From: Sphingobacteriales bacterium
GTDB taxonomy: Bacteria > Bacteroidota > Bacteroidia > Chitinophagales > Chitinophagaceae
Direction of reading: 5' to 3'
Length of the DNA: 64,000 bases
Assembly: GCA_003963365.1 (NCBI GenBank)
Contig: RXJG01000003.1
Span: 65,543 to 129,542 of the forward strand
Part shown: positions 270 through 7,114 of the stretch, piece by piece
How the letters are laid out: the number at the start of each line of letters is the position of its first letter
Position numbering within the stretch: position 1 is the first letter of the stretch
Program-made: the position numbers and the translations under genes
Notes under the pieces: generated by a model
What the model saw: the letters and a program-made list of their open reading frames with translations, nothing else
Databases searched by the model: none
Told to the model about the DNA's origin: nothing

Positions 270-2777
270 ATGGATACTACAAAAAGTACAGGTTATAAAA
301 CAATTTCAAAATGGATGGCCGGAAAAGGATTTAGCCCTTTCCAATTCCAGGAGGAGACCTGGCACCAAATAGCAAACAACAATAGCGGATTAGTGAACGC
401 ACCAACCGGCTGCGGAAAAACATTTTCTGTATTCCTGGGGGCTTTAATCAATTTTATCAATCAGTATCCCGGCAATTATCATTCTAAAAAAAATAATGGT
501 CTTCAGCTTTTATGGATTAGTCCGCTAAGAGCATTAGCCAAAGATATAGGCCGTGCCATGGAAGAAGTAATTGAAGAATTACAAATCCCCTGGAAAGTTG
601 GAATAAGAAATGGTGATACTGCTACAAAAGAAAGAGCCCGGCAAAAAAAACAAATGCCCGAAGTGCTGATCATAACACCAGAAAGCCTGCATTTACTTCT
701 TGCCCAAAAGAACTACGGAGAAATATTTGCCTCCCTAAAAATTATTGCTATTGATGAGTGGCATGAATTGCTGGGCAGTAAAAGAGGTGTACAGGTTGAA
801 CTGGCCATCAGCAGAATCATCCATGTTCAACATTCGTTATTTAATACTCAGAGTTCAATATGGGGTATCAGTGCTACTATTGGCAATTTAGAAGAAGCGA
901 AAGAAGTTTTATTAGCCCCTTTAAAACAACAGGGTGTAATAGTAAAAGCCTCGCTGGATAAAAACATCCGGATCGAATCCATTATTCCCGATGAAATTGA
1001 AAAGTATCCGTGGGCCGGACACCTGGGAATAAAACTTGCCAGCAAAATTATACCCATCATTCAGCAAAGCAGCACTACACTCGTCTTTATTAATACAAGA
1101 GGTATGAGTGAACTGTGGTACCAAAAACTGCTTGATGCATGTCCCGACTTAGCAGGCCTGATTGCTTTGCACCATGGATCAATTGATATGGACCTGCGCA
1201 TCTGGGTAGAAGAAGCATTACATGCCGGTAAACTAAAAGCCGTTGTTTGTACAGCCAGTCTCGACCTCGGCGTTGACTTCAGACCAGTAGAGACTGTAAT
1301 ACAAGTTGGCTCACCAAAAGGTGTAGCCCGTTTTTTACAAAGAGCTGGACGTAGTGGTCATCAACCAGGTGAAACAAGTACGATCTATTTTTTACCCACT
1401 CATTCACTGGAATTAGTAGAAGCAGCTGCATTGAAAAATGCCATGGAAGAAAAAATAGTGGAAAGCAGGGCACCTATGCTTTTATGCTATGATGTACTGA
1501 TACAGTTTTTAGGAACACTGGCCATTTCAGATGGATTTAATCCCGACATTATCTACGGAGAAATTAAATCAACCTATTGCTTTGGTGAGATTACAAAAGA
1601 TGAGTGGGATCAAATAGTTTATTTTGTTACGGAAGGTGGAAACGCATTACAACAATATGATGACTATAAAAAACTGGAGAAGGAAGGTGATGTTTACAAA
1701 ATAAAAAACCGGCGAATGGCGATGCGGCACCGTCTGCATATTGGAACTATTGTAAGTGACAATATGCTTAAAGTAAAATTCTTGAGCGGAGGTTTTATTG
1801 GTGTAATTGAAGAGTATTTTATATCACGATTAGAACCCGGCGATGTATTTACATTAGCCGGCCGTAATCTTGAGTTCGTGATGATAAAAGATATGACCGC
1901 TATTGTAAAAAAATCGAACGCAAAAAAATCAATTGTACCCAGCTGGCAGGGAGGTCGTATGCCTTTAAGTGCCAACCTTGGGTTTATGCTCCGGAAAACG
2001 TTAAACGAAGTTTCTTTACTGAATAACAAACAAAAAAAATCTTCAGTAAACAACGAGCTGATAGCATTAAGCCCATTGTTTGAATTACAGCAACAACTTT
2101 CACATGTGCCAAAAGAGAACGAATTGCTTATTGAGCATATTGAAACAAAGGATGGCTTTCATTTATTTGTTTATCCATTTGAAGGAAGATTAGTACATGA
2201 GGCTATGGCGGCCATCCTTGCTTACCGCATCAGCCGGATAACACCGATCACCTTTTCATTTGCCATGAATGATTATGGTTTTGAATTGCTAAGCGATAAA
2301 CCCATTCCGGTGGATGATAGTAATGTTTATGAATTATTTTCTCCCCAAAATTTACTGGAAGATATTCAGCGAAGTGTAAACTCTACTGAAATGGCAAAAA
2401 GAAAGTTTCGTGATATTGCTGTGATTGGAGGATTGATATTCCAGGGCTATCCGGGTGAATATAAAAAGGCAAGGCACCTGCAGTCAAGTGCGTCACTGCT
2501 GTTCAATGTATTTAACGAATATGATAAAGACAATTTATTGTTAAGACAGGCTTACCAGGAAGTAATGGATCAGCAAATGGAAGAGATAAGACTTCGTAGC
2601 ATGCTTCAGCGAATTCAGCAATCAAACATCATCATTAAATTTCCTCAACAACTTACACCTTTCTGTTTCCCGGTAAAAGTAGACAGCATGCGGGAAGATC
2701 TTTCTTCTGAAAAATTAGAGGAGCGGGTAAAGAAAATGACAGGACAGCTAGAAAAGTTTCAGCATCAATTAAGATGA
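270..2777 (+). CDS. Ligase-associated DNA damage response DEXH-box helicase (Lhr-like)
   Basis: This is an SF2 helicase of the Lhr-core type, 835 residues. A Walker A motif APTGCGKT lies at 44-51, a DEWH Walker B box at 162-165, and the motif VI arginine fingers QRAGRSGH at 357-364. The long C-terminal half fits the winged-helix and DUF4145-like region of Lhr-core proteins. In many bacteria this helicase is encoded with an ATP-dependent ligase, an MBL-fold exonuclease and PdeM, a set linked to repair. Here PdeM lies about 0.9 kb away on the opposite strand, and no ligase or exonuclease is visible. The gene overlaps the convergent histone-deacetylase-like gene by 13 bp. The ATG at 270 gives a normal family N-terminus. 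Confidence 0.9.
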   Translation: MDTTKSTGYKTISKWMAGKGFSPFQFQEETWHQIANNNSGLVNAPTGCGKTFSVFLGALINFINQYPGNYHSKKNNGLQLLWISPLRALAKDIGRAMEEVIEELQIPWKVGIRNGDTATKERARQKKQMPEVLIITPESLHLLLAQKNYGEIFASLKIIAIDEWHELLGSKRGVQVELAISRIIHVQHSLFNTQSSIWGISATIGNLEEAKEVLLAPLKQQGVIVKASLDKNIRIESIIPDEIEKYPWAGHLGIKLASKIIPIIQQSSTTLVFINTRGMSELWYQKLLDACPDLAGLIALHHGSIDMDLRIWVEEALHAGKLKAVVCTASLDLGVDFRPVETVIQVGSPKGVARFLQRAGRSGHQPGETSTIYFLPTHSLELVEAAALKNAMEEKIVESRAPMLLCYDVLIQFLGTLAISDGFNPDIIYGEIKSTYCFGEITKDEWDQIVYFVTEGGNALQQYDDYKKLEKEGDVYKIKNRRMAMRHRLHIGTIVSDNMLKVKFLSGGFIGVIEEYFISRLEPGDVFTLAGRNLEFVMIKDMTAIVKKSNAKKSIVPSWQGGRMPLSANLGFMLRKTLNEVSLLNNKQKKSSVNNELIALSPLFELQQQLSHVPKENELLIEHIETKDGFHLFVYPFEGRLVHEAMAAILAYRISRITPITFSFAMNDYGFELLSDKPIPVDDSNVYELFSPQNLLEDIQRSVNSTEMAKRKFRDIAVIGGLIFQGYPGEYKKARHLQSSASLLFNVFNEYDKDNLLLRQAYQEVMDQQMEEIRLRSMLQRIQQSNIIIKFPQQLTPFCFPVKVDSMREDLSSEKLEERVKKMTGQLEKFQHQLR

Positions 2778-3685
2778 TAAATGTCTTTTGCCAAACGAAA
2801 AGTATTACAATGTGCTTCTACAATTAATTTCACATCCTGAGAATAACCACCACCCATTGCAACAGTACAGGGAATATTATTTTGTTTCAAACAGGTAAAT
2901 ACCATTTCATCTCTTCTTTTACACCCTTCCAAACTGATCTTTAATTTACCAAACTTATCAGTAGCTAATATATCAACCCCCGATAAAAAGAAAGCAAAAG
3001 ATGGTTGTACTTTAGCGATTAGCATTTTTAAATTCCTGTCAAGCAAATTAAGATATTCATCATCCGCTATTCCATTTGGCAAAGCAATATCCAGGTCAGA
3101 TAATTCTTTATGAAACGGATAATTATCTTTCCCATGCATACTGAAAGTAAAAACATCCGGGTTGTTTTTAAAGATAGATGCCGTTCCGTTTCCCTGGTGC
3201 ACATCGAGATCGATAATCAAAATCCTGTCTGCCAGCTTCCTGCTTATTAAGTAATTGGCAGCCACAGCAAAATCATTCAGCAAACAAAAACCTTCTCCTT
3301 TATCAGCGTAGGCATGATGCGTTCCTCCGGCTACATTTAATGCTACTCCGTTTTGCATAGCATACAAACAACAATCTATGGTTCCCTGTGTAATTATAAT
3401 TTCCCTCATCGTCAACCCTGGTGACTGAGGAAATCCAATTCGTCTTTGTTCAGAGGCTGATAATGTTTGAAACTTAAGTTTATTCCAGTATTCTTTTGTA
3501 TGCGTCAGTAAAATAATTTCTTCGCTGCAGGGTTCAGGTGCAAAGAGATTATGTTGTTTGATTGTTCCTTCATGCAGCAACTGACCGGGAATCAATTCAT
3601 ATTTTACCATTGGGAAGCGATGACCTTCCGGTAATGGATGAGCATAAATAAAATCGTAAGCTATATACAAAGTTTTTTCACTCAT
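2765..3685 (-). CDS. Histone deacetylase family protein (class I/II-like deacetylase)
   Basis: An arginase/deacetylase-fold enzyme of about 306 residues, probably a zinc-dependent amidohydrolase acting on acetylated lysine or polyamines. Visible motifs are the paired His of GTHHAY, the zinc-binding DLDVH, a later GVDILATDKFG that supplies the third ligand, and the GGGYS glycine-rich end. The ATG at 3685 is preferred over one six codons upstream. It starts one base after the stop of the pdeM gene (3687), so the two are almost certainly co-transcribed and translationally coupled. The 3' end overlaps the convergent helicase gene. The substrate cannot be told from sequence. Confidence 0.88.
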   Translation of the reverse strand: MSEKTLYIAYDFIYAHPLPEGHRFPMVKYELIPGQLLHEGTIKQHNLFAPEPCSEEIILLTHTKEYWNKLKFQTLSASEQRRIGFPQSPGLTMREIIITQGTIDCCLYAMQNGVALNVAGGTHHAYADKGEGFCLLNDFAVAANYLISRKLADRILIIDLDVHQGNGTASIFKNNPDVFTFSMHGKDNYPFHKELSDLDIALPNGIADDEYLNLLDRNLKMLIAKVQPSFAFFLSGVDILATDKFGKLKISLEGCKRRDEMVFTCLKQNNIPCTVAMGGGYSQDVKLIVEAHCNTFRLAKDIYHLN

Positions 3686-3686
3686 A

Positions 3687-4331
3687 TTATATAGGCACCA
3701 CATTATTGTTCACAATGGCAAATACTTTATCCTGCCGGGTTGGTTCCACCGCAACAAAACCGGTAAAGCCTCCAAAAGCAGGCAATATTGCCTGGGAGGG
3801 AGTAAAATAAAAACAAGGAAACCTCAGTGATTGTTTGCCCAAACCACTTAGTCTCACACCGGGATGTATATGTCCGCTAAAAACATATGCCTCACTATTC
3901 TCAGTAGGATGATGGGCAAAAATAAAATCCCCTATACGCAATTCGTCTGGTATCAACTCTATCTGCATCTCGTCATACATACGTTCTTCTAAAATATCAT
4001 GATTGCCTTTGATCAGTTTAACTGAAGTATGTGTATTATCATTTCTCCAGCGTTTAAACAATTCTATTTCTTTATTCTCTTCACTATGAAACATATCACC
4101 CACAATCAGCAGTTGTTGTGGCTTAAAAAATTGTACCAGGTGAAATAATCGTTGCAAATCTTTTTTGTATACAGCCTGCGGAACAGCTATTCCTGATTTA
4201 CGAAAATGACCTGTTTTACCGAAATGAAGATCAGATATAATTAAAGCATTTTTATCTTCCCAGAAAATTGCCTTCTCGGATGATAACCAAAACACGTTCT
4301 CTTTCAGCACAAATTTTACAGGAGGAGTCAC
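3687..4331 (-). CDS. pdeM: Ligase-associated DNA damage response endonuclease PdeM (metallophosphoesterase)
   Basis: A calcineurin-like phosphoesterase of 214 residues with the full metal-binding set: DLHFG at 34-38, GDMF at 78-81, GNHD at 109-112 and GHIHPG at 153-158. The short length and the FGKTGHFRKSGIAVP stretch after the first motif are typical of PdeM, the nuclease encoded with Lhr-like helicases and ATP-dependent ligases. It is the fourth gene of a tight minus-strand operon, 2 bp after the haem-binding gene and 1 bp before the deacetylase-like gene. Its usual partner, the DEXH helicase, is transcribed towards it from the other side. Confidence 0.9.
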   Translation of the reverse strand: MTPPVKFVLKENVFWLSSEKAIFWEDKNALIISDLHFGKTGHFRKSGIAVPQAVYKKDLQRLFHLVQFFKPQQLLIVGDMFHSEENKEIELFKRWRNDNTHTSVKLIKGNHDILEERMYDEMQIELIPDELRIGDFIFAHHPTENSEAYVFSGHIHPGVRLSGLGKQSLRFPCFYFTPSQAILPAFGGFTGFVAVEPTRQDKVFAIVNNNVVPI

Positions 4332-4333
4332 AG

Positions 4334-4828
4334 TTACGGTCTTTCTTTTTGGTCTTCCTCTTCAGGAAGATTATACTTTGAAGCAATAGAATCCATTACC
4401 GACTGAGCCCAGTTGATCAGTGTGGACTTTTGTGCCTCTGATAATATTGCATTTTTATGAATCCAGGTATAACTTGGCAAAGGCATTCCACCTTCCTTTA
4501 CTTCGTCTATTAAATCGTCTAATTTATGATGTGCCCGTTGAGGAGTGTAACTGGTAAACTCATCAAAATTCAATTCTTTCTTTCCTCCATTTACATGATT
4601 ATTCATCCACCAGGCAACCGGCTGGATATTATTATACCAGGGGTAATGGGTATTGTTACTGTGGCAATCATTACAACTTACTTTTAAAATATCCGTCACT
4701 TCCTGCGGAACCGGGTAAGCTTTTGCTATTGCATTCGGCTGTTCACCTGCCGACTGATTCTTTTTTGGATGGATGAATTGAATTGTTACCAATATAACCA
4801 GCAATACAATGAGAATTTTCTTGATCAT
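4334..4828 (-). CDS. Membrane-anchored haem-binding domain protein (c-type)
   Basis: 164 residues. Residues 1-21 form a hydrophobic signal or anchor. A CNDCH motif at 52-56 gives the covalent c-type haem site. The following SNNTHYPWYNNIQPVAWW stretch is the hallmark of the Bacteroidota haem-binding domain family (Haem_bd), a periplasmic protein of unknown redox partner. Gaps of 10 bp upstream and 2 bp downstream place it in the same operon as the MurU-like and PdeM genes. Function beyond haem binding is not established. Confidence 0.85.
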   Translation of the reverse strand: MIKKILIVLLVILVTIQFIHPKKNQSAGEQPNAIAKAYPVPQEVTDILKVSCNDCHSNNTHYPWYNNIQPVAWWMNNHVNGGKKELNFDEFTSYTPQRAHHKLDDLIDEVKEGGMPLPSYTWIHKNAILSEAQKSTLINWAQSVMDSIASKYNLPEEEDQKERP

Positions 4829-4838
4829 AATCTTATAT

Positions 4839-5555
4839 TTAATTAAAATATTTTTCTGCTTCTGCTACTGCTTCCGGCTTACCAACATCTACCAGCAAAT
4901 CACCCGTATGATCATAAGCCATAATTTTATGTTCGGCCACCAGCGACAAATACACATCCACCAAAGAAAACTTACCAGTTTGTTTGATGAGTGAAAATAT
5001 TGATGGCTCAAATACTACGACACAACTATAAGCTTTTTCTAATAAGCCGGGCTTATTAACAGGTATTCTTTCTTCACCAGTTTTGGTATTTCTCCATCCA
5101 CATAAACGATTATTTTCATCAAATAAAAAGTAACGGGATGTTTTACGATTCGTTACTCCAAAACTGATCAAAGCTTTTTGTTCTTTATGATACTGCCGTA
5201 AATGATCAATATTAAGGTTCGTAAGAATGTCTGCATTGGTAGTTATAAAAGGTTCATCACCTTCTAACAACTTTCTTGCTTTTAATAACCCTCCACCCGT
5301 TTCTAATACTTCATCTGTTTCATCGCTGATGATAATGTTAGAGCCCCAGCCATTATTCTTTTTGATGGCATCAATTAACTGGTCAGCAAAATGATGCACA
5401 TTCACCACCACATCCTTAATTCCATATTGCTGCAGGTACTCTATATTTCTTTGCAATAATGATTTACCATTTACCGGCGCCAGTGCTTTTGGATGTTTAT
5501 CAGTAAAAGGTTTAAACCTTGTTCCCAATCCTGCTGCAAATATCATCGCCTTCAT
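4839..5555 (-). CDS. MurU-like sugar-1-phosphate nucleotidyltransferase
   Basis: A 238-residue nucleotidyltransferase with the N-terminal signature AGLGTRFKPFT (about 8-18), PKAL at 22-25 and an internal NADI that supplies metal ligands. Length and motif set match MurU/HddC-type enzymes that transfer UMP or GMP to a sugar 1-phosphate. In cell-wall recycling, MurU makes UDP-MurNAc from the MurNAc 1-phosphate formed by the anomeric kinase AmgK. The gene immediately upstream (3 bp gap) encodes an AmgK-like kinase domain, which supports this role. Mannose- or heptose-1-phosphate specificity cannot be excluded. Confidence 0.82.
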   Translation of the reverse strand: MKAMIFAAGLGTRFKPFTDKHPKALAPVNGKSLLQRNIEYLQQYGIKDVVVNVHHFADQLIDAIKKNNGWGSNIIISDETDEVLETGGGLLKARKLLEGDEPFITTNADILTNLNIDHLRQYHKEQKALISFGVTNRKTSRYFLFDENNRLCGWRNTKTGEERIPVNKPGLLEKAYSCVVVFEPSIFSLIKQTGKFSLVDVYLSLVAEHKIMAYDHTGDLLVDVGKPEAVAEAEKYFN

Positions 5556-5558
5556 ATA

Positions 5559-7010
5559 CTATCCGTTTATCCAGTTTTTTGATTCCTGCTCTATATGATT
5601 TACTACTACGTTCACTCCAAACTTTTCTTTAAGATGTTTAGCCAAACTATCGGCTGCGAATACAGAACGGTGCTGCCCGCCTGTACAACCAAAACTCACC
5701 ATCAAATTTTCAAATCCACGTTTGATATAATCCTGAACCGAAATATCCACCATACCATAAACATATTGCAGGAACGACGGCATCTCACTTTGATGCAATA
5801 AAAATTCCTGCACTTCCTTATCTCTGCCAGTAAGTTTTTTAAATTCATCAAATCTCCCGGGATTATAAATTCCCCTGCAATCAAAAACATAACCACCACC
5901 GTTGCCTCCTGTATCTTCAGGAATTCCTTTTTTATAGGAGAAGCTATTAATGTTAATCACCAGTTTACTATCTGGCCCGGCTTTAGCGATATCATATTTT
6001 TCAATGATCTTATCATCTACAATGGCCCACAACACTCTTTGCAGTTCGGGTACACGAATGGGTATATTTTTATTTTGTAAGAACCATCGCAGGTTACGCA
6101 GGGCAAATGGTATACTGGAGATGAAATACGGTTTGCGTTCAAACAAACCACGATAACCATAAGCTCCCAGTGTTTGCAACATACGTATCAGTACAAATCC
6201 ATAATAATTATCATTGAAGTATTCTTTATTAAGATGATTACCGAGCAAACTGTTTACATGACTAAAATAATATTGAAACAATTCATCCCGCCACGCATAA
6301 GGCAATGCTGCTCTTGCCTGCCATAACATGGAAGCCACATCATATTGCAATGCCCCCTGCATGCCGCCCTGGTAATCGATAAAATAAACACGATCATCTT
6401 TAACCATTACATTTCTGCTCTGGCAATCCCGGTGCATAAAGAATTTTAAATCTTCCTGCATCAGGAAACTGCTGAGCATATCAAAATCATTCAGCAACAA
6501 ATTTTTATCGTAAGGCAATTGCAATGCCCGGAGAAAATAATATTTGAAATATAACAGATCGGAATAGATAGCCTGTTTGTCAAATGATTTGGTGGCGATA
6601 CAATTGTTGTAATCTAAATTTTCCCCGCCTTCTACCTGCAATCTTGCTAACTGGGCAAACGTTTTTTTATAGAGTTCAAAAATATAATCGTTATATCCAT
6701 GCTTTTGTACCAGGTGAAACAATGAAACATCACCAAAATCGGTTTGTATGTATTTCTTCTTCTCCGCATCTGCATACAAAATCTCAGGTACCGGCAATTG
6801 TTTAGTGTTGAAGTGACGGCTAAATTCTATAAAGGCGTTGTTCTCCGGCACATTGGTTGGATTGAAAGTAACAATGTAAGAGTTGTTATTATGATGAACA
6901 CGAAAATACTGGCGGTTACTGCCAGCTTGTGGCAAAGTTTGAACGGTAATATCGGCTCCGGGTTTCCAACTTTCAAAAAAAGATTTTACCTGTTCGGGTA
7001 TTGAATTCAT
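5559..7010 (-). CDS. AmgK-like sugar kinase fused to a RapZ C-terminal domain
   Basis: 483 residues from the ATG at 7010. Residues about 20-320 are an aminoglycoside-phosphotransferase fold with catalytic loop HRDCQSRN at 193-200 and metal site IDYQGG at 211-216, as in AmgK, the anomeric MurNAc/GlcNAc kinase. Residues 349-483 match the RapZ C-terminal domain, with FDCRGIYNPG at 376-385 and GCTGGQHRS at 441-449. The RapZ N-terminal ATPase domain with its Walker A is absent. In E. coli the RapZ C-terminal domain senses glucosamine 6-phosphate and binds small RNA. The frame opens further upstream at 7094, but those codons lie in a terminator hairpin, so 7010 is chosen. First gene of a five-gene operon. 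Confidence 0.85.
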   Translation of the reverse strand: MNSIPEQVKSFFESWKPGADITVQTLPQAGSNRQYFRVHHNNNSYIVTFNPTNVPENNAFIEFSRHFNTKQLPVPEILYADAEKKKYIQTDFGDVSLFHLVQKHGYNDYIFELYKKTFAQLARLQVEGGENLDYNNCIATKSFDKQAIYSDLLYFKYYFLRALQLPYDKNLLLNDFDMLSSFLMQEDLKFFMHRDCQSRNVMVKDDRVYFIDYQGGMQGALQYDVASMLWQARAALPYAWRDELFQYYFSHVNSLLGNHLNKEYFNDNYYGFVLIRMLQTLGAYGYRGLFERKPYFISSIPFALRNLRWFLQNKNIPIRVPELQRVLWAIVDDKIIEKYDIAKAGPDSKLVININSFSYKKGIPEDTGGNGGGYVFDCRGIYNPGRFDEFKKLTGRDKEVQEFLLHQSEMPSFLQYVYGMVDISVQDYIKRGFENLMVSFGCTGGQHRSVFAADSLAKHLKEKFGVNVVVNHIEQESKNWING

Positions 7011-7089: not shown

Positions 7090-7114
7090 ACCATCCAATA
7101 ATTATTCGCAAACT

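Follow-up and report, generated by a model that had tools for sequence, protein, structure and literature searches.

A RapZ C-terminal domain allied with an AmgK-like kinase and a MurU-like nucleotidyltransferase in Bacteroidota suggests action on a sugar 6-phosphate, perhaps as a missing phosphatase

We found that the fusion of a sugar kinase with a RapZ C-terminal domain (RapZ_C) represents one version of a conserved module with three parts: a kinase, RapZ_C, and a nucleotidyltransferase. The fusion is encoded in the window, by which we mean the whole 64,000-nucleotide stretch of Sphingobacteriales bacterium DNA analyzed here. The kinase and uridylyltransferase of the module appear to recycle cell-wall MurNAc, and the association of RapZ_C with them suggests that a sugar 6-phosphate is what the domain acts on and that it might be the phosphatase missing from the pathway. 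We favor RapZ_C as the MurNAc-6P-handling part of the module, most likely a phosphatase, with an allosteric sensor as the main rival; to the specific proposal that it is the MurNAc-6P phosphatase of a three-part MurNAc salvage module we assign a probability of roughly 0.4. If this is true, a missing step of MurNAc salvage would be filled in a large phylum that includes the gut commensals Parabacteroides distasonis and Bacteroides finegoldii, RapZ_C would gain a metabolic function, and the catalytic-looking cysteine of Escherichia coli RapZ would be explained. What the domain does to a sugar phosphate is testable with one small, naturally free-standing protein. The features are as follows.

4839–5555, minus strand: MurU-like nucleotidyltransferase, 238 residues, 3 bp downstream of the fusion; MurU (NF045761) is its best NCBIfam model
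5559–7010, minus strand: kinase–RapZ_C fusion gene, 483 residues, a single open frame with Pfam APH and PF22740 and an AlphaFold model
6021–7010, minus strand: kinase half, residues 1–330, APH fold (PF01636, Foldseek match 3csv, invariant catalytic residues)
6411–6434, minus strand: kinase catalytic loop HRDCQSRN, residues 193–200, with R194, D195, R199, and N200 invariant
5961–6020, minus strand: variable linker, approximately residues 331–350, of low conservation between the domains
5589–5960, minus strand: RapZ C-terminal domain, residues 351–474 (PF22740), whose model fits E. coli RapZ-CTD 5o5s
5874–5903, minus strand: glycine-rich loop NGGG plus FDCR, residues 370–379; [NHS]GGG in 70 of 70 module members
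5856–5864, minus strand: NPG, residues 383–385, with Gly at the position of E. coli H190
5664–5690, minus strand: pocket motif GCTGGQHRS, residues 441–449, of CX5R form, equivalent to E. coli C247, T248, G249, H252, and R253

Translation from the ATG at 7010 gives 483 residues and from an in-frame upstream ATG at 7094 gives 511; we prefer the 483-residue start because close relatives agree with it. Pfam places APH (PF01636) at residues 23–249 (E 7e-17) and PF22740 at residues 351–474 (E 4e-34), the motifs HRDCQSRN, IDYQGG, FDCRGIYNPG, and GCTGGQHRS are all found in the 483-residue protein, and the full-chain AlphaFold model has a mean pLDDT of 90.8. No RapZ ATPase (N-terminal P-loop) domain was found in the fusion protein by Pfam and NCBIfam scans, and the RapZ model NF003828 matches at 104 of 244 bits over model positions 154–275 only. 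The Pfam result and the uninterrupted frame thus agree with the initial annotation, which described one 483-residue chain joining a kinase to RapZ_C with the ATPase domain absent. Mean pairwise identity is 28% in the linker (residues 315–348), 47.5% in the kinase, and 57% in RapZ_C, the best conserved of the three. The host genome has a single PF22740 domain and therefore encodes no separate full-length RapZ. The survey of APH plus RapZ_C architectures that the initial annotation proposed, run across Bacteroidota, showed the fusion to be widespread: it recurs in 61 non-redundant loci and is therefore not a sequencing error or chimera, and the same recurrence excludes a frameshift joining two genes, the artifact about which the annotation had warned.

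Both enzymes of the pair diverge widely from the curated models of AmgK and MurU. The closest solved structure to the kinase half, compared as a predicted model, is 3csv (Foldseek TMt 0.77), and R194, D195, R199, N200, and D212 are invariant in 33 aligned fusions. The top NCBIfam kinase models for the fusion are two AmgK equivalogs; against the better of these, NF045759, it scores 51.5 bits (E 7.7e-14), far under the curated cut-off of 550 bits. The nucleotidyltransferase scores 134 bits against MurU (NF045761), the highest among nucleotidyltransferase models and below the curated cut-off of 250 bits; two other module nucleotidyltransferases score 143–145 bits, and MurU is the top nucleotidyltransferase model in all three scanned. 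Because these scores lie far under the equivalog cut-offs, we call the enzymes AmgK-like and MurU-like rather than certified members. Judged by its likeness to AmgK and its intact catalytic residues, the kinase would phosphorylate the sugar C1, and the nucleotidyltransferase, judged by its likeness to MurU and its pairing with the kinase, would make UDP-MurNAc. As the initial annotation reported, the MurU-like gene lies 3 bp from the fusion, on the same strand, and the two genes probably share an operon. The nucleotidyltransferase adjoins the kinase in most loci and lies elsewhere in the genome in 8 others checked. Clustering of approximately 12–19 kb around 30 loci and the window revealed no other conserved neighbor, that is, no gene family common to three or more families, and only RapZ_C was seen traveling with the kinase–nucleotidyltransferase pair in the neighborhoods and genomes examined. 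Elsewhere in the window (270–2777, 2765–3703, and 3687–4331), a histone-deacetylase-like gene (2765–3703) lies between those for a ligase-associated DEXH helicase (TIGR04121) and a PdeM endonuclease (TIGR04123).

A search for relatives in named genomes returned 36 loci, nearly all full-length fusions, ranging from Chitinophagaceae to Prolixibacteraceae and from 97% to 43% (~40%) identity. P. distasonis (WP_005858754.1, L135) and B. finegoldii (WP_237923178.1, L136) each carry a 476-residue fusion at 3507–4937 under the NCBI name “RNase adapter RapZ,” with a “nucleotidyltransferase family protein” encoded immediately after it; given that the ATPase domain is absent, this name is probably misleading across Bacteroidota and would be corrected for these kinases. 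RapZ_C was present in 36 of 296 Bacteroidota genomes, every one with the module kinase, in open frames of 478–524 codons in 27 genomes and 134–155 codons in 9. A strong kinase ortholog (>250 bits) was found in 37 of the 296, these same 36 and one further small genome (G009), in which the kinase overlaps the nucleotidyltransferase directly and RapZ_C is absent (L131, 6090–7801). In six genomes of family f4 and in G031, the three parts are neighboring genes, with the kinase first, RapZ_C second, and the nucleotidyltransferase third; in G180 and G271 they occupy three separate genomic places. On a kinase tree, which was built quickly and contains several long branches, the split and unlinked forms are scattered among the fused ones and well-supported branches require at least two changes; their several positions imply repeated fusion or fission, with no part lost. 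The G009 genome, a natural loss experiment for RapZ_C, lacks AnmK, MurQ, and a MurK-family (PF01869) kinase. Many genomes of family f17 have a more distant AmgK-like kinase and no RapZ_C; in two of three loci examined this kinase adjoins a nucleotidyltransferase, here of 313–324 residues (L132, 6880–8900; L133, 5768–7710). In G271 (L099, 7273–8993), the free-standing RapZ_C gene lies directly before an MFS transporter, a possible importer of cell-wall fragments; checked for AmpG, it gave no NCBIfam match at 1e-5.

AnmK makes MurNAc-6P, and MurQ removes MurNAc-6P by etherase cleavage. We tabulated AnmK, MurQ, and RapZ_C in the 296 genomes (lists transcribed by hand, with an E-value under 1e-15 required to count MurQ as present). 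RapZ_C is found in every one of the 12 genomes that have AnmK but not MurQ, a set spanning six families, compared to 14 of 196 genomes with both AnmK and MurQ (Fisher p ~1e-12, a descriptive value given that the genomes are related by descent). Because of this difference, RapZ_C probably stands in for MurQ, replacing it in MurNAc-6P salvage, and this complementarity ties the module to MurNAc-6P. Outside f17, all 64 genomes of which lack both AnmK and MurQ, RapZ_C is present in 19 of 20 MurQ-less genomes; the twentieth is G009, with the kinase–nucleotidyltransferase pair alone. Pairs without RapZ_C (G009, f17) were seen only in genomes without AnmK. Together, the presence of the kinase wherever RapZ_C occurs in the 296 genomes and the complementarity with MurQ bear out the view, put forward in the initial annotation, of an AmgK/MurU-type pathway tightly linked to RapZ_C. 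A simple complementarity fails, as 17 module genomes, the window's own included, also have MurQ; in these the module would act as a side route. AnmK as the sole source of the 6-phosphate also fails, since 10 module genomes lack it. Nine of the 10 genomes with RapZ_C and without AnmK have a PF01869 (MurK-family) protein, a co-occurrence that is no more than suggestive, as PF01869 is a broad family that takes in more than MurK; the characterized MurNAc 6-kinase of Tannerella forsythia belongs to this family (PMC5790795). Neither AnmK nor MurQ is present in seven of the module genomes, and G230 has MurQ and lacks both AnmK and a MurK-family protein.

The nearest known counterpart is AmgK–MurU–MupP of Pseudomonas putida and Pseudomonas aeruginosa, likewise an APH-type kinase with a MurU-type nucleotidyltransferase, present where MurQ is missing (PMC5371407). 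The Pseudomonas AnmK–MupP–AmgK–MurU route needs a MurNAc-6P phosphatase, and phyletic reasoning of this same kind led to the discovery of MupP (PMC5371407). The Bacteroidota module differs in that RapZ_C replaces or accompanies the HAD protein MupP and the kinase is fused to RapZ_C. No protein exceeded the MupP model cut-off in 15 Bacteroidota genomes, 11 of which have the module and AnmK without MurQ (best 101 of 359 bits); weak matches to the model were present in all 15. HAD proteins of unassigned specificity were present in both genomes searched for them, and with HAD phosphatases so plentiful, one of them could fill the MupP role even though the MupP model identifies none.

We propose the following route. 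AnmK supplies MurNAc-6P; in some genomes a MurK-like kinase may do so instead. RapZ_C would then take MurNAc-6P and remove the 6-phosphate, performing the job of MupP, whose place in the pathway it is predicted to share, with the unrelated RapZ-CTD fold. Hydrolysis would proceed via the invariant cysteine, with the arginine and backbone amides holding the phosphate. The AmgK-like kinase would convert the MurNAc so released to MurNAc-1-phosphate, and the MurU-like enzyme would convert this to UDP-MurNAc. Genomes with AnmK and without MurQ would need the RapZ_C step because MurNAc-6P would otherwise be a dead end. RapZ_C also persists as an unlinked gene (G180, G271) or as a separate one (f4, G031), indicating that it works untethered, as an enzyme can.

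The pocket of the domain bears on its chemistry. The isolated RapZ_C model (pLDDT 92.1) superimposes on E. coli RapZ-CTD 5o5s with Z 19.9 and an rmsd of 1.6 over 123 residues; after RapZ, its next structural matches among those listed are phosphofructokinases, at Z ~6.5. None of 70 sequences departs from the Cys, Thr, two Gly, His, Arg, and Ser of the pocket, and the C-TGGQH-R-S motif otherwise varies at one position. RapZ of E. coli and YvcJ of Bacillus subtilis share this C-terminal fold and the pocket residues C247, T248, G249, H252, and R253 (E. coli numbering); unlike them, the module protein has no ATPase domain, has an attached sugar kinase, has Gly at the H190 position in 70 of 70 RapZ_C sequences (a position occupied by His or Tyr in aligned full-length RapZ), and has an added GGG loop, before FDCR, that is missing from aligned full-length RapZ sequences of other phyla. 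These changes might open the pocket to larger sugars, MurNAc-6P for example. In E. coli, the RapZ pocket holds sulphate or malonate, the C247A and C247S substitutions abolish RapZ function, the authors suggest for the thiol possibly “a specialised catalytic function,” and the ligand in a crystal with GlcN6P was “likely a chemically transformed product” (PMC9841335). These hints from C247 and the transformed product would fit an enzyme, and with the invariant pocket cysteine they put an enzymatic role on at least an equal footing with a sensor. Our literature search did not find RapZ and AmgK treated together, and the titles and abstracts of papers joining RapZ and MurNAc concern other subjects.

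Several observations count against the phosphatase. The domain has the RapZ-CTD fold and then resembles phosphofructokinases, and no protein tyrosine phosphatase fold was among the matches listed by Foldseek and VIA-align, so that the likeness to CX5R (PTP-like) phosphatases, a Cys-x5-Arg-Ser at the oxyanion site that is local only, may be due to chance or convergence. MurQ is kept in the 17 module genomes noted above, the seven genomes without AnmK and MurQ and G230 fit the route poorly, and the genomes are not independent samples. Finally, a MurNAc-6P sensor would give the same phyletic pattern.

A sensor, the main rival, which we consider somewhat less likely than the phosphatase, would bind GlcN6P, GlcNAc-6P, or MurNAc-6P and switch the kinase on or off, binding it as a subunit where RapZ_C is a separate gene. 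It fits the co-occurrence as well as the phosphatase does. E. coli RapZ-CTD is a known metabolite sensor that binds GlcN6P at nanomolar affinity (PMC7073468), fusion and strict co-occurrence suit an obligate regulator, and RapZ_C is lost in G009, where no 6-phosphate source was seen. It explains the unlinked forms and the cysteine less well. A subunit role is less natural for the unlinked genes of G180 and G271, and the invariant cysteine is left unexplained. If RapZ_C were a sensor, the 12 genomes with AnmK and without MurQ would have no clear enzyme for converting MurNAc-6P to MurNAc (11 searched, no MupP over cut-off). E. coli H190, which is required for function, is replaced by Gly in every module member, and the pocket gains the GGG loop. 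The initial annotation had suggested an allosteric link within one protein: the tight functional link stands, whereas GlcN6P sensing directed onto an attached kinase sits less easily with dispensable tethering, the loss of H190, and the GGG loop.

It is unlikely, in our estimate, that the module serves a sugar other than MurNAc, that RapZ_C processes or senses the phosphate of this other sugar, and that the MurQ pattern is a lineage coincidence. The low scores against the AmgK and MurU cut-offs and the seven module genomes without AnmK and MurQ would suit this reading, but MurU is the top-scoring nucleotidyltransferase model in the three members scanned (the window and two more), and genomes with AnmK and without MurQ have the module in six separate families and lack it in none. 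Less probable still is a purely structural or channeling domain that dimerizes the kinase and brings MurU close with no ligand of its own. In its favor, RapZ-CTD dimerizes in E. coli and requires F181 and D182 for this (PMC5737377), the equivalents of which are invariant in RapZ_C, but conservation concentrates in the ligand pocket and RapZ_C is kept as an unlinked gene.

Returning to RapZ_C as phosphatase, we tentatively extend the proposal to the origin of the domain, which might have been a small CX5R-type cysteine phosphatase of amino-sugar 6-phosphates, later recruited for GlcN6P sensing in E. coli RapZ; we regard this step as rather speculative. A small free-standing copy also occurs outside Bacteroidota. 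A Streptomyces conjugative plasmid (L142, 1486–1869) encodes a free-standing 127-residue RapZ_C with the motif GCVGGRHRS; a NUDIX gene follows two genes later. One free-standing Streptomyces RapZ_C has Phe at the position of E. coli H190. The E. coli RapZ domain matched 85 plasmid records, 30 of them from Streptomyces.
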